A DNA stretch of 57,980 bases, taken from positions 1 to 57,980 of the forward strand of contig SVLY01000011.1 in NCBI GenBank assembly GCA_015067715.1, read 5' to 3'. The stretch comes from Oscillospiraceae bacterium. Its GTDB lineage: Bacteria > Bacillota > Clostridia > Oscillospirales > QAMX01. A model generated the notes under the pieces. The model was not told where the DNA came from and made no database searches. It was given only the letters and a program-made list of their open reading frames with translations. Both the position numbers and the translations under genes were made by a program. This document shows, piece by piece, positions 37,278 to 57,980 of the stretch; positions within the stretch are counted from its first letter, which is position 1; each line of letters begins with the position of its first letter.

Positions 37278-38393
37278 ATGGCAATTAAAACTGCAGTCAT
37301 CGGTATGGGCGGCATCGGCTACACCCATGCCAGAGCCTACGCCAACGATCCTCTTGCCAAGCTTATCGCCGTTTGCGATATCAACAAGGAAAAGGCCGAC
37401 AAGGCCGCCGAGGAATTTGGTGTTCGCGCCTTTTACTCCGTAAAGGAGCTTTGCGAGGGTCTGGGCGACGAGCTCGAGGCTGTCTCGGTCTGCACCAGCG
37501 GCTATGAAAACGGCTCCTTCCACTACGAGCCCGCCATGGAGTGCCTCACCTACGGCAAGAAGGTCCTCTGCGAAAAGCCCCTCTGCGCCGACATTCAGGA
37601 TGCCAGAGACCTTGTCAACTACGCTCTCAAGAACCGCCTGTATCTGGGCTGTAACCTGAACCACTACTTCACCGACATCGCCGCCAAGGCCAAGGGCTGG
37701 ATGGACGCAGGCGAGATCGGCGAGACCGTTTACTGCCTCCACAAGGTCGGCTTCGACGGCAGTGACTACGGCTACGGCGGCGTTGGCGACCTTAAGTCCC
37801 GCTGGCTCAAGCCCTATTCCCACTGCAAAGCCTTCCTCACCCATCCCTTCTCCGTTATGCGCTATTTCTGCGGCGACATCGTCCAGGTCCAGGCCTTCCT
37901 TGACCGTCCCGGCGTGAGAAAGACCGCCGGCGACCCCATGCTCTCCATCAACAGCGTTAACTGCAAGTTCGAAAAGGGCGGCGTTGGCGTTCTTATCAGC
38001 CAGCGCGGCGATGCCCGTTTCGGTCTTGGCGGCTGGTGGAGCTACGAGCACGCAGGCACCAAGGGCACCTTCTGCATTGAGAACTGCGTTGAACAGCTCA
38101 CCTACTGGCGCGGCCATCAGAAGGACGAAGAGGGCAAGCTCTACCTGCCCAAGCCCGAAGTCATCAACACCGGCATCACCAGCTTCGACGCCACCTTCCC
38201 CGCCAGAATCCACGCCTGGCTGGAAGATCTCACCAATAACGTCCACTACGAGTTCATCCGCTCCTCCGGCAGAGACGCTCTTGCCACTCTGGAGTATATC
38301 GAGGCCGTTATCCAGTCCTACGAAAACGGCGGCGCCACCGTCCGTCCCCATCCCCTTCCCGCGATCCACGGCACTCCCGAATACATCCACTAA
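37278..38393 (+). CDS. Gfo/Idh/MocA family oxidoreductase
   Basis: A 371-residue paralog of the preceding dehydrogenase. It has 'VIGMGGIGYTHARAYA' (nucleotide binding), 'CEKPLCADIQDA' and 'NLNHYFTDIAAKAKGW'. The two paralogs are too divergent to be a recent duplication and may handle different steps, for example oxidation and later re-reduction of a keto-sugar around the isomerase. It ends the operon and is followed by a strong terminator. Confidence 0.92.
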   Translation: MAIKTAVIGMGGIGYTHARAYANDPLAKLIAVCDINKEKADKAAEEFGVRAFYSVKELCEGLGDELEAVSVCTSGYENGSFHYEPAMECLTYGKKVLCEKPLCADIQDARDLVNYALKNRLYLGCNLNHYFTDIAAKAKGWMDAGEIGETVYCLHKVGFDGSDYGYGGVGDLKSRWLKPYSHCKAFLTHPFSVMRYFCGDIVQVQAFLDRPGVRKTAGDPMLSINSVNCKFEKGGVGVLISQRGDARFGLGGWWSYEHAGTKGTFCIENCVEQLTYWRGHQKDEEGKLYLPKPEVINTGITSFDATFPARIHAWLEDLTNNVHYEFIRSSGRDALATLEYIEAVIQSYENGGATVRPHPLPAIHGTPEYIH

Positions 38394-38454
38394 GCATTCT
38401 TCCTCAAAGTACAAATGCGCTTGCTGCAGTAGCCCAAACCCACAGAGCAACAGA

Positions 38455-38490
38455 AAAGAGAAGACTCGTATCATAACGAGTCTTCTCTTT
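38455..38490 (+). terminator. Terminator of the sugar operon
   Basis: AAAGAGAAGACTCGT pairs with ACGAGTCTTCTCTTT (15 bp, six-base loop), followed by CTTTTTG. Confidence 0.9.
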
Positions 38491-38595
38491 CTTTTTGTCT
38501 GATAAGTGATATTCTGTTCGCCAACAACTTGCGAAACAAATATCACTGCGAAGCAATATAACTCGCCGTCAGGCGAATAGAGTTGCGTGATACTC
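38489..38595. repeat. Partial copy of a 207-bp intergenic repeat element
   Basis: This shares with 38806-39012 the left end (TTTTTGTCTGATAAGTGATAT), the inner ACTTGCGAA...CAAATATCACTGCG segment, one mini-hairpin CGCCGTCAGGCG and the right end GCGTGATACTC. It carries only two hairpins in its array and lacks the closing half of the right-end palindrome. Confidence 0.75.
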
Positions 38596-38805
38596 TGCTT
38601 GGAGTAGGGCGGGGGCTTGCTCCCGCCGAAACGTTTGGAGAGGATATGGAATCCTCCCCTACGGGCAGAAAGGTAAGCCGTACACCGCAGGGGCGAACTG
38701 CGTTCGCCCGTTTGGCGTATCATCCCTGCTACCTTTCCCGGCTACATTGTGCTGAGGGAGACCTTTTCCGGACGCCCCGGGAGGGGCGTCCCTACATTTC
38801 AAATA
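38596..38805. repeat. Mosaic of dispersed intergenic repeat segments
   Basis: No gene. It contains GGGCGGG...CCCGCC and GGACGCCCC...GGGGCGTCC hairpins, and the segments GGGGCGAACTGCGTTCGCCC, GCGTATCATCC and CATTGTGC, which recur near 85-175 of this window. Confidence 0.6.
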
Positions 38806-39012
38806 TTCTTTTTGTCTGATAAGTGATATGCTGGTACTCGTCAGTGTGTTATTCTATTCTCCCATAAACTTGCGAAGCAAATATCACTGCGTAGCAATAT
38901 AACTCGCCGAAGGCGAATATAACTGCGAAGCAATATAACTGTGCCGAAGGCACAATATAACTCGCCGTCAGGCGAATAGAACTAGCGTGATACTCCGAAA
39001 AGAGTATCACGC
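38806..39012. repeat. Complete repeat element with a mini-hairpin array
   Basis: The left end matches 38489-38512. AGTGATAT (38820-38828) can pair with ATATCACT (38881-38888). Then come five short palindromes, at 38889-38895, 38905-38915, 38925-38931, 38941-38953 and 38963-38974, each separated by a nine-base linker AATATAACT (last copy AATAGAACT). The right end is a 28-base hairpin GCGTGATACTC...GAGTATCACGC (38985-39012). No protein is encoded. Confidence 0.85.
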
Positions 39013-39046: not shown

Positions 39047-40084
39047 TTATCTTATGCCCCGGTTGACGTAGATGCCAACGTTGCCGGAGGCCGTGGATAT
39101 GGCGTATTCGCCGCCGGACTTGCCGCAGATATATTTTCTCTCGGCGCCGGAGCCAAGGTAGAACCCGTCGAAGCCCTCCACCTTTGCTCTGCCGGAAACG
39201 GTTTTGAGATTAAGGGTGAAGGAAGCGCTCTCGGGCAGATAGAGCTTGCACATGCCCGATGCCGAGGAAAAGCTCAGCTCTTCCGGAGCGAAGGCAAACA
39301 CGGCGTGGAGGTCGCCGGAGGCGGATTCAAAGGAAATGCGCTTCACGCCGCCCCGAACGTCGCAGTCGCCGCCGGAGGTGTCGAGGTCAAGGTCGGCAAT
39401 GTCCGTATATTTCGAGGACCACTCGCCTCCGGAGCTTGAAAAGATTGCGCTTTCAAAGGCACAGTAGGCAACGGAAGCGTCGCCGGAGGCAGTTTCGCAC
39501 TCGAAGACCTCGGCAGAGAGGTTGGTCACGGAAAAGTCCGCGGACTGGGAGGCGAGCTTTATCTCCATCAACCCGGAGGCCATGCGTGCGGGGACCAGTA
39601 TCTCAAGGCATCTTGGGGGAGCAAAAACGTCCTTTATGCCCTCAAGGCTCCGTCTGACGGTCTTTTTGCCGTTGAAATCTATGGCAAGAATGCCCTTTTC
39701 GAAGGTGAACTTTGCAGGCTCGGCGGTCTCATTGAGGTTTTTCTCAAATACGACGGTGTCCGTTCCGCTGTGCTGGCGGAGGAAGACCTTGCCGTAGCTG
39801 TAGTTCACGCGGATGGCCCGAACCTCGCCACGGATCTTCCAGCGGTTGTCGCCGATGGTAAAATCTCTCCCCCGGGAGCTCTGACCGGGCTTTGCCTCGG
39901 GAGAAGGCTCTGCCGGGACGAGCGGGGTGCCAAGGGAGGCAATTGCAAGACCCATTGCGGCCTCAGGGGCTGTTCCCTTTGCGATCTCGCCGTCGTAAAT
40001 ATCAAGGGCGCGGCTCCGGTACTCCTCGCCGCCGGGTTTGTTCAAGGTAAGCTCTTTGACGTAAGAAATAAGTCTGTCCCGCAT
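39047..40084 (-). CDS. DUF4097-family beta-repeat protein
   Basis: A 345-residue protein. The N-terminal 60 residues look like the helical DUF1700/HAAS-type head ('MRDRLISYVKELTLNKPGGEEYRSRALDIYDGEIAKG'). The rest is a right-handed beta-repeat of the DUF4097 type, with repeating 'TASGDASVAY', 'TSGGDCDVRGG', 'ESASGDLHAVF', 'SSASGMCKLYL', 'TVSGRAKVEGF', 'TASGNVGIYV'. There is no signal peptide or membrane helix. Such proteins often accompany PadR regulators and signal across the membrane, but no PadR gene is here. Function unknown; monocistronic. Confidence 0.85.
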   Translation of the reverse strand: MRDRLISYVKELTLNKPGGEEYRSRALDIYDGEIAKGTAPEAAMGLAIASLGTPLVPAEPSPEAKPGQSSRGRDFTIGDNRWKIRGEVRAIRVNYSYGKVFLRQHSGTDTVVFEKNLNETAEPAKFTFEKGILAIDFNGKKTVRRSLEGIKDVFAPPRCLEILVPARMASGLMEIKLASQSADFSVTNLSAEVFECETASGDASVAYCAFESAIFSSSGGEWSSKYTDIADLDLDTSGGDCDVRGGVKRISFESASGDLHAVFAFAPEELSFSSASGMCKLYLPESASFTLNLKTVSGRAKVEGFDGFYLGSGAERKYICGKSGGEYAISTASGNVGIYVNRGIR

Positions 40085-57783: not shown

Positions 57784-57856
57784 GGGGGTATAGCTCAGCT
57801 GGTAGAGCGGCGGTCTCCAAAACCGTAGGCCCAGAGTTCGATCCTTTGTGCCCCCG
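57784..57856 (+). tRNA. tRNA-Trp (CCA)
   Basis: A 73-base cloverleaf: acceptor GGGGGTA/TGCCCCC, anticodon stem CGGT/ACCG with loop CTCCAAA (anticodon CCA), T-arm CAGAG-TTCGATC-CTTTG, discriminator G. CCA is not encoded. Confidence 0.93.
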
Positions 57857-57860
57857 TCAG

Positions 57861-57892
57861 AAAAACCGACAAGTTTTGACTTGTCGGTTTTT
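57861..57892 (+). terminator. Terminator after tRNA-Trp
   Basis: AAAAACCGACAAG pairs with CTTGTCGGTTTTT (13 bp) around a six-base loop. Confidence 0.88.
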
Positions 57893-57900
57893 CAACTAAG

Positions 57901-57980
57901 TGCGCCTTTCGGCGCGTGAAGTTTGCTCCGCAAGTGAAGTTGTCCTGCGGACAGTGAAGTTTCTGCGGAAGTGAGCGGCG
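57901..57980. repeat. Mini-hairpin array with GTGAAGT linkers (runs off the window)
   Basis: Four short palindromes at 57902-57915, 57923-57933, 57941-57953 and 57961-57970, all of different sequence, alternate with the constant linker GTGAAGT (57916-57922, 57934-57940, 57954-57960; GTGAG at 57971). It continues past the window end. The architecture mirrors the array at 38889-38983, with different linker sequence. Confidence 0.8.

Follow-up and report, generated by a model that had tools for sequence, protein, structure and literature searches.

What is a string of very short palindromes, each different from the next and set on a nearly constant nine-base linker, doing in two tandem copies between two convergent genes? 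This question is raised by one intergenic locus in a contig of 57,980 nucleotides from an Oscillospiraceae bacterium, the whole of which is referred to here as the window. Our analysis has confirmed that mini-palindromes on a 9-mer are present there in two tandem copies, which lie 317 bases apart by their left ends and 341 by the starts of their arrays. It has also shown that the array forms the interior of a dispersed element, about 350 bp long, that is found in terminator loops, which the original prediction had overlooked. The features of the locus are as follows.

37278-38393, plus strand: gene for a Gfo/Idh-type oxidoreductase (identity read from the translation)
38406-39012, plus strand: whole composite element, from the far end (truncated, boundary approximate) to the T-end hairpin, placed by core and end matches
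38455-38490, plus strand: long inner hairpin with a T-run, terminator-like (15 pairs, tail CTTTTT), kept in G000 copies
38505-38513, minus strand: left-arm linker AGTGATATT (the reverse of AATATCACT), copy 1
38514-38522, plus strand: centre CTGTTCGCC, one mismatch to GGCGAATAG, 5′ side of the enclosing helix P1, copy 1
38529-38539, plus strand: first hairpin (HP1) TTGCGAAACAA, one mismatch, copy 1
38548-38554, plus strand: mini-hairpin GCGAAGC, copy 1
38555-38563, plus strand: linker AATATAACT, copy 1
38564-38575, plus strand: HP4 CGCCGTCAGGCG, GTCA loop, copy 1
38585-38606, plus strand: T-end hairpin of copy 1, broken after GGAGTA
38607-38805, strand not assigned: block of other palindromic repeats between the copies
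38822-38829, minus strand: left-arm linker AGTGATAT, copy 2
38854-38862, plus strand: centre CTATTCTCC, one mismatch, 5′ side of P1, copy 2
38870-38880, plus strand: HP1 TTGCGAAGCAA, copy 2
38889-38895, plus strand: mini-hairpin GCGTAGC, copy 2
38905-38915, plus strand: mini-hairpin CGCCGAAGGCG, copy 2
38925-38931, plus strand: mini-hairpin GCGAAGC, copy 2
38941-38953, plus strand: mini-hairpin GTGCCGAAGGCAC, copy 2
38963-38974, plus strand: HP4 CGCCGTCAGGCG, copy 2, which together with 38975-38983 is the 3′ side of P1
38985-39012, plus strand: T-end hairpin GCGTGATACTCCGAAAAGAGTATCACGC, element end turned toward the 3′ end of the next gene
39047-40084, minus strand: gene convergent with the oxidoreductase gene

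Between its linkers, copy 1 holds the hairpins GCGAAGC and CGCCGTCAGGCG, preceded by the imperfect TTGCGAAACAA, and copy 2 holds GCGTAGC, CGCCGAAGGCG, GCGAAGC, GTGCCGAAGGCAC and CGCCGTCAGGCG, preceded by TTGCGAAGCAA. The two and five palindromes originally counted are correct, and become three and six if the first hairpin is included. The block at 38489-38516 is repeated at 38806-38833 (96%) and that at 38521-38568 at 38862-38909 (92%). The linker AATATAACT occurs five times in the element and once elsewhere in the window, against 0.13 expected, and none of 100 shuffles reached six; genome-wide it was counted 93 times, with 13 for the reversed control. It had been called invariant, which is too strong for a near-constant sequence that becomes AATATCACT before the first inner hairpin and AATAGAGTT or AATAGAACT after the last. 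AATATMACT is used below as shorthand for the near-constant 9-mer (AATATAACT or AATATCACT). The range first proposed, 38489-39012, lies within the element, which is larger: it begins near 38406, where it matches the core of other G000 copies (L007, L008, L031), and ends with the hairpin at 38985-39012, a type-B end hairpin. The composite contains the two tandem array copies and the intervening block of other palindromic repeats; the window copy is a type-B element with a truncated far end and a duplicated array region. As an aside, the intervening block (e.g., GGGCGGGGGCTTGCTCCCGCC, GGGGCGAACTGCGTTCGCCC) splits the T-end hairpin of copy 1, and a similar block also lies between tandem copies in L010, L017 and L028.

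The design recurs beyond this genome. When the suggested linker search was run in related genomes, the two-linker pattern (5 to 20 free bases between linkers) found arrays in 17 of 40, its own genome included, and the three-linker pattern in 52 of 295 genomes of the window’s order, spread over 33 of 148 genera; the reversed control gave 0. A phylum-wide draw of 398 genomes, six of them from the order, gave two positives, both inside the order, and AATATMACT arrays were found in 0 of the 392 genomes sampled outside it. A second linker family, AAYTTCACT, was present in 37 of the 295 genomes of the order. The scan of named genomes gave at least 115 stretches; among the matches listed, nearly all were in Clostridia or Oscillospiraceae MAGs from animal guts, and the carriers were mostly MAGs from ruminants and other herbivores. 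The sole cultured named species among the matches listed was Sporosalibacterium faouarense (L110), by a 41-base match that may be chance. No array was found behind the orthologues of the window gene at the loci of seven relatives (57-87% protein identity), and the sole same-genus relative of the window genome gave no array match. In IMG/VR, 12 stretches were retrieved, in which 9 of 33 units were palindromic and most were AT-rich repeats; a few of these contigs (within L221-L232) carry true array units and are perhaps mis-binned host DNA. Lone linkers that lack hairpins, for the most part within coding sequence and accounting for about 13 of 39 stretches, were set aside as chance. A linker-free detector picked up further arrays in L157, L171, L199, L215 and L074, with linkers such as GTGATAT, ATGATAT, ATTTCATC and AATATCTCT.

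Hairpins between linkers can be fairly counted because the search pattern makes no demand for palindromes. With a perfect hairpin defined by a loop of 3 to 5 and a stem of at least 2, perfect hairpins made up 59 of 60 units in the own genome, 115 of 132 in relatives and, among the matches listed, 306 of 365 in named genomes; the corresponding numbers after shuffling the inserts were 3.0, 3.7 and 8.0. Units were merged only if identical including 25 bases of context, and the relatives and named-genome sets share some organisms. The prediction that stem pairing is kept rather than sequence was borne out by 316 distinct inserts between AATATMACT linkers, with 102 distinct 5′ arms; GCGAAGC is the commonest unit. 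Swapping 3′ arms among inserts of the same length reduced perfect pairing; at length 13, for example, 51 of 69 inserts were perfect before the swap and 2.1 after it. At length 8, where there are six inserts with one arm, swapping did not reduce it. The orthologous copies L059 and L090, whose flanks are 91% identical, differ by a double compensating change in a stem, from C-G to T-A. Unit number also varies between arrays, as had been proposed.

The strand on which linkers read AATATMACT is called R; in a two-armed element, whose arms are head to head, it reads away from the centre in each arm. On R, GNA accounts for 65 of 120 triloops and GNNA for 75 of 112 tetraloops, and the forms expected were the other strand relevant are nearly absent (TNC, 3; TNNC, 0). 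C-G closes the loop in 212 of 232 distinct tri- and tetraloop hairpins; a GNA or GNNA loop is present in 140 of the 232, so that not every unit fits, and other loops (AAA, TTTA) are common. For 456 ordinary hairpins taken from the same sequences but lying outside the arrays, the corresponding numbers were 37 GNA, 25 GNNA, 31 TNC and 27 TNNC. The AAYTTCACT family, among the matches listed, behaves alike: 79 of 105 distinct inserts are perfect hairpins, with GNA in 24 of 43 triloops, GNNA in 19 of 30 tetraloops, one TNC and no TNNC. Single stem mismatches on R were G.T in 29 cases and A.C in 10 (p 0.003), and 10 and 3 in the AAYTTCACT family among the matches listed. This excess would fit either G.T pairs being tolerated as R folds or deamination acting on an exposed R, both of which imply a single-stranded R.

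These loops match a known DNA rule. Made of RNA instead of DNA, GCGAAGC is much less stable. In the excerpt of PMC4686876, extraordinarily stable DNA mini-hairpins have GNA or GNNA loops and two or more G-C pairs, and GCGAAGC is nuclease-resistant and melts at 78 °C; the GNA loop is also described in part of PMC6479982. The array hairpins follow this rule, though not in every unit, with a GNA or GNNA loop, C-G closure and at least two G-C pairs. At its third base GNNA has A or G in 41 of 75 cases and C or T in 34 of 75; the GNRA preference of RNA is therefore absent. DNA and RNA fold energies did not separate the two, and the energy models are not decisive because the DNA parameter set gives GNA triloops no bonus. 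Whole elements folded as DNA are far more structured than shuffles on both strands (z of -7.9 to -13.1; three elements, 20 shuffles each). Both strands fold about equally well, and therefore folding alone picks no strand; the loop and mismatch data do. A pairing of left and right linkers as one ladder was considered and rejected, as the A/C variants are not in nested order in L041, L046 and L048.

The original prediction knew of no named family with this design. Rfam does hold one: RF01706, Gut-1, published as a candidate non-coding RNA from the human gut only, its expression being inferred (PMC2864571, in part). Its matches in the window are as follows.

38522-38585, minus strand: Gut-1 match to copy 1, 34.0 bits (gathering 50)
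38892-38963, minus strand: Gut-1 match to copy 2, 49.3 bits (gathering 50), E 1.1e-8
57893-57965, plus strand: second window array, with linker GTGAAGT, behind a tRNA terminator; 52.2 bits, above gathering

The alignment of the window array spans positions 1-77 of the 77-position model, with three hairpins and a constant spacer. At 57784-57980 a tRNA is followed by its intact terminator and then by the GTGAAGT array, which belongs to another linker family. Above gathering, 13 hits were obtained in 9 of 20 hand-chosen loci. A genuine non-coding RNA of small hairpins, made from the strand of the Rfam model or as the 3′ extension of an upstream gene, would explain these matches, and the G.T asymmetry is also compatible with an RNA of the opposite strand. 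Several observations speak against it, and against the transcribed chain of stems first proposed. The two head-to-head arms of L109 match the model on opposite strands, and the strand favoured by the G.T excess is opposite to Rfam’s. No promoter-like site lies inside the window arrays (one was found at 39049-39078, against 0.9 expected), arrays lie beyond terminators, with a strong hairpin at the array foot, and a GNNA third base of C or T in 34 of 75 is not the R of RNA GNRA. For the STAXI motif, RNA was chosen over DNA by tetraloop chemistry (PMC2864571, in part); the same argument applied to these arrays points to DNA and to the other strand. We read the array as a folded single DNA strand that is selected, not an expressed RNA, and an RNA identity seems to us quite improbable.

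Two further explanations bear on the same data. Each hairpin with AGTTATATT could act as a weak terminator, the array being a bidirectional string that stops transcription from either side. Three terminator-like minus-strand calls fall inside the window arrays, incoming RNA from both sides meets a hairpin and then a U-rich linker, and arrays are located between gene ends. However, hairpins of 2 bp are probably too weak in RNA, selection on incoming RNA would favour A.C on R where G.T is favoured 29 to 10, and the end hairpins already do this job; we give the proposal little credence. Alternatively, the palindromes could be made and re-made by fold-back template switching with linker slippage, in an array without function. 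The varying unit number, nine-base linkers ideal for slippage and the exchange of a whole hairpin between L108 and L203 (GGGCGAAGCCC for GCAACGC) are what such a process would leave. It does not account for the one-strand c-GNA-g loop grammar, the covariation of P1 (see below) and the constant hairpin order, which require selection, nor for the double compensatory change in L059/L090, and the loop and strand bias is already seen in many independent genomes. A functionless array is hard to credit, and we favour selection on the folding of R.

Array loci were then compared all-against-all, which revealed blocks of constant length at unrelated places. Sharp common ends were found when 11 type-A and 12 type-B copies were aligned (L163 being placed in the wrong orientation in the type-B alignment), and the sequence outside them is unrelated. 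The element is short and non-coding, with multiple dispersed copies that share these ends, and its common layout is a long palindromic T-end, the T-side array, a centre, a second array, a core and a far end. The T-side order is fixed, from centre TATTCGCC through three hairpins to CGCC-loop-GGCG-AATA, and the centre can pair with the 3′ side of the last hairpin to form helix P1. Outside ATTCGCC/GGCGAAT, the next two bases show complementarity in 38 of 43 cases; the mean number of contiguous extra pairs is 3.5, versus 1.9 for swapped partners (highest swap, 2.5). A search with the far end alone recovered sister subfamilies in the same genome, with linkers GATGAAATC, TGTGAAATA and AGTGATG beside AGTGATATT. 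In L309, L313, L315 and L329, other P1 helices of 12-13 bp are found at a spacing of 71-73; in L335 and L346 the longest pair computed is the linker, not P1. Sister elements that share these ends and differ in their linkers and helices were noted at L309, L313, L315, L316, L318, L319 and L329. Since the subfamilies differ in both linkers and P1 helices, sequence has been replaced wholesale under a constant architecture. The T-end and far end are related (GBGTGATRYYCTTARCGGAG), and the orientation of a terminal inverted repeat is ambiguous because the T-end is itself palindromic.

A site of the BIME kind, at which cruciforms between terminator and promoter absorb supercoils or bind a nucleoid protein or topoisomerase, would agree with head-to-head repeats between transcription units, with AT-rich linkers and very stable hairpins, and with the excess structure of whole elements over shuffles. 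It is less easily reconciled with linkers that are wholly different between subfamilies in one genome, with sharp mobile ends, and with a patchy presence within one genus, in which matches numbered 22, 5, 4, 4, 0 and 0 (22 in G076, none in G104 and G174). Such a role is unlikely in our view, and a mobile element describes these copies better.

The genomic sites of the copies follow a pattern. Only 3 of 236 arrays overlap a predicted gene (home-made gene calls). T-side arrays face the 3′ end of a gene in 71 of the 82 having a neighbour, and between co-directional genes they point toward the gene 3′ end in 22 cases versus 4 in the opposite direction. At loci with known tRNAs, the distance from a tRNA or tmRNA to the start of a T-side array behind it is 36-42 bases in five cases, and each of these arrays faces the 3′ end of the RNA gene. 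By impression, arrays close behind tRNA or tmRNA genes seem commoner than expected (L108, L109, L112, L115, L122, L147, L048). A hairpin of at least 8 pairs follows the array in 59 of 91 cases, its start falling at base 0 in 42 of these and at base 1 in 11; shuffling left one such hairpin among the 91. In 14 of 17 two-ended elements the two host flanks complement each other with a score of at least 8, and swapped flanks gave 0.98; at L055, L139, L163 and L148, A-runs lie outside one arm and T-runs outside the other, and the flanks of the remaining 3 of 17 have no complementarity. In a linker-blind set collected by the far end, with the second arm at 287-366 bases, a score of at least 10 was reached in 8 of 16 versus 0.22, this set overlapping the 17 (L008 is L311 and L027 is L312). 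Among all 152 array clusters, complementary flank words of at least 11 nt were found in 17, against 1.43. The natural reading is that the element has been inserted into the loop of a host intrinsic terminator. At the window copy, where the far end is missing, no split terminator was found between the left flank TAAGCATTCTTCCTC and the right flank CAATCGGTGCGGAAGTTTTTT. A 3-base target-site match was seen in 5 of 17 elements, which is not significant (swapped mean 1.9, maximum 6).

Three candidate enzymes were compared between carriers and non-carriers, and none tracked the arrays: Y1_Tnp was present in 7 of 17 carriers and 9 of 23 non-carriers, IS110 in 2 of 17 and 3 of 23, and DUF559, whose test was prompted by the single locus L343, in 8 of 17 and 9 of 23. 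Neither an element end nor two linkers occurred at any of 30 DUF559 loci. The parent transposase that defines a MITE was thus not found among Y1_Tnp, IS110 and DUF559, nor did Y1 transposase mark the carriers as it would for REP/BIME sequences moved by RAYT. No partner arm, as an autonomous copy would have, was found beyond 560 nt in L342, L343, L329, L337 and L309, of which L342 and L343 may be chance matches to the end pattern. The ends of Y1 (IS200/IS605-type) elements at L096-L103 also bear three hairpins in a row, their loops being GTA or CATA.

Taken together, these analyses suggest, with a probability of roughly two in three, that the window holds a truncated copy of a non-autonomous, MITE-like mobile element whose outward DNA strand is selected for folding. 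The element is about 350 bp long and was found in a single order of gut Clostridia; it combines two head-to-head mini-hairpin arrays on a constant 9-mer with a conserved core, a long palindromic T-end and a far end related to it. Its usual site is the loop of an intrinsic terminator of the host, and there its own end hairpins could take over termination; insertion would be cheap because these hairpins would stop transcription in place of the split terminator. Selection would keep the outward-reading strand able to form a chain of very stable mini-hairpins with GNA/GNNA loops. Folding may take place while the strand is single, either at the replication fork or in a single-stranded transposition intermediate that joins into a hairpin loop, and the folded array may protect the strand and mark it for an enzyme. 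Active transposition would then pass through a single-stranded stage and end in a terminator loop, where DNA hairpins would expose single strand. Tentatively, and at somewhat less than even odds, we propose a broader view: a single-stranded DNA mobile family that recognizes the shape of its target (a terminator loop) instead of its sequence, that carries an ordered chain of mini-hairpins selected for one-strand folding, that freely replaces linkers, hairpins and enclosing helix, and of which the ‘Gut-1 RNA’ is a misread piece.

On the main reading, an orphan Rfam family would gain a physical identity and a testable reading as a DNA element, not an RNA. A mobile element landing in terminator loops could spread at little cost to its host. 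The arrays, whose hairpins differ by the hundred and are for the most part perfectly paired, would be a natural case in which DNA hairpin folding is apparently selected, down to the GNA loop rule known from the test tube. The enzyme, once found, would open a new structure-guided insertion system.

The Gut-1 name already covers part of this element. Like the arrays, the model has three hairpins on a constant linker (GUGAAAU), with CUUCG or UUGC loops on the model strand; it is filed as a human-gut sRNA, whereas the arrays here are two head-to-head arms within a mobile element of about 350 bp. They also depart from the model in their DNA-type loops, opposite strand, terminator-loop site and, among the matches listed, herbivore carriers. 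In the open-licence literature, we found no description of such arrays as DNA elements with selected mini-hairpins or of their insertion into terminator loops.

Bacterial MITEs (BOX, RUP, SPRITE, Correia), as covered in part of PMC10969869, are likewise short, non-coding, intergenic and dispersed, with end repeats and hairpins. Unlike them, the element has palindromic ends that are only loosely inverted and no clear target duplication, and the available part of PMC10969869 makes no mention of terminator-loop insertion or mini-hairpin arrays for MITEs. REPINs and BIMEs (PMC3116915, in part) are also head-to-head intergenic hairpin repeats in many copies, but REPs keep their sequence and the element here varies its hairpins and keeps its linkers. 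A further contrast is that Y1 transposase does not track the arrays. Group IIC introns use intrinsic terminators as landing sites, recognized by structure; they are retroelements and insert after the terminator, not inside it. The element differs in its size of 350 bp, in having no RT and in its position inside the terminator. The hairpin elements of organelles, such as the double-hairpin elements of Allomyces, are mobile and change in sequence while pairing is kept. They differ in being mitochondrial and in having one or two hairpins, and we know of none with an ordered array or a terminator-loop site. The organelle comparison was made with the repetitive hairpin-forming elements of PMC2800124 (in part), and stem-loop families have been surveyed across 40 genomes (PMC2267715, in part). 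Finally, d(GNA) and d(GNNA) mini-hairpins are known from in vitro chemistry and aptamers, and natural arrays are not described in the excerpt of PMC4686876; the units of the array have the same loop rule and the same G-C stems.
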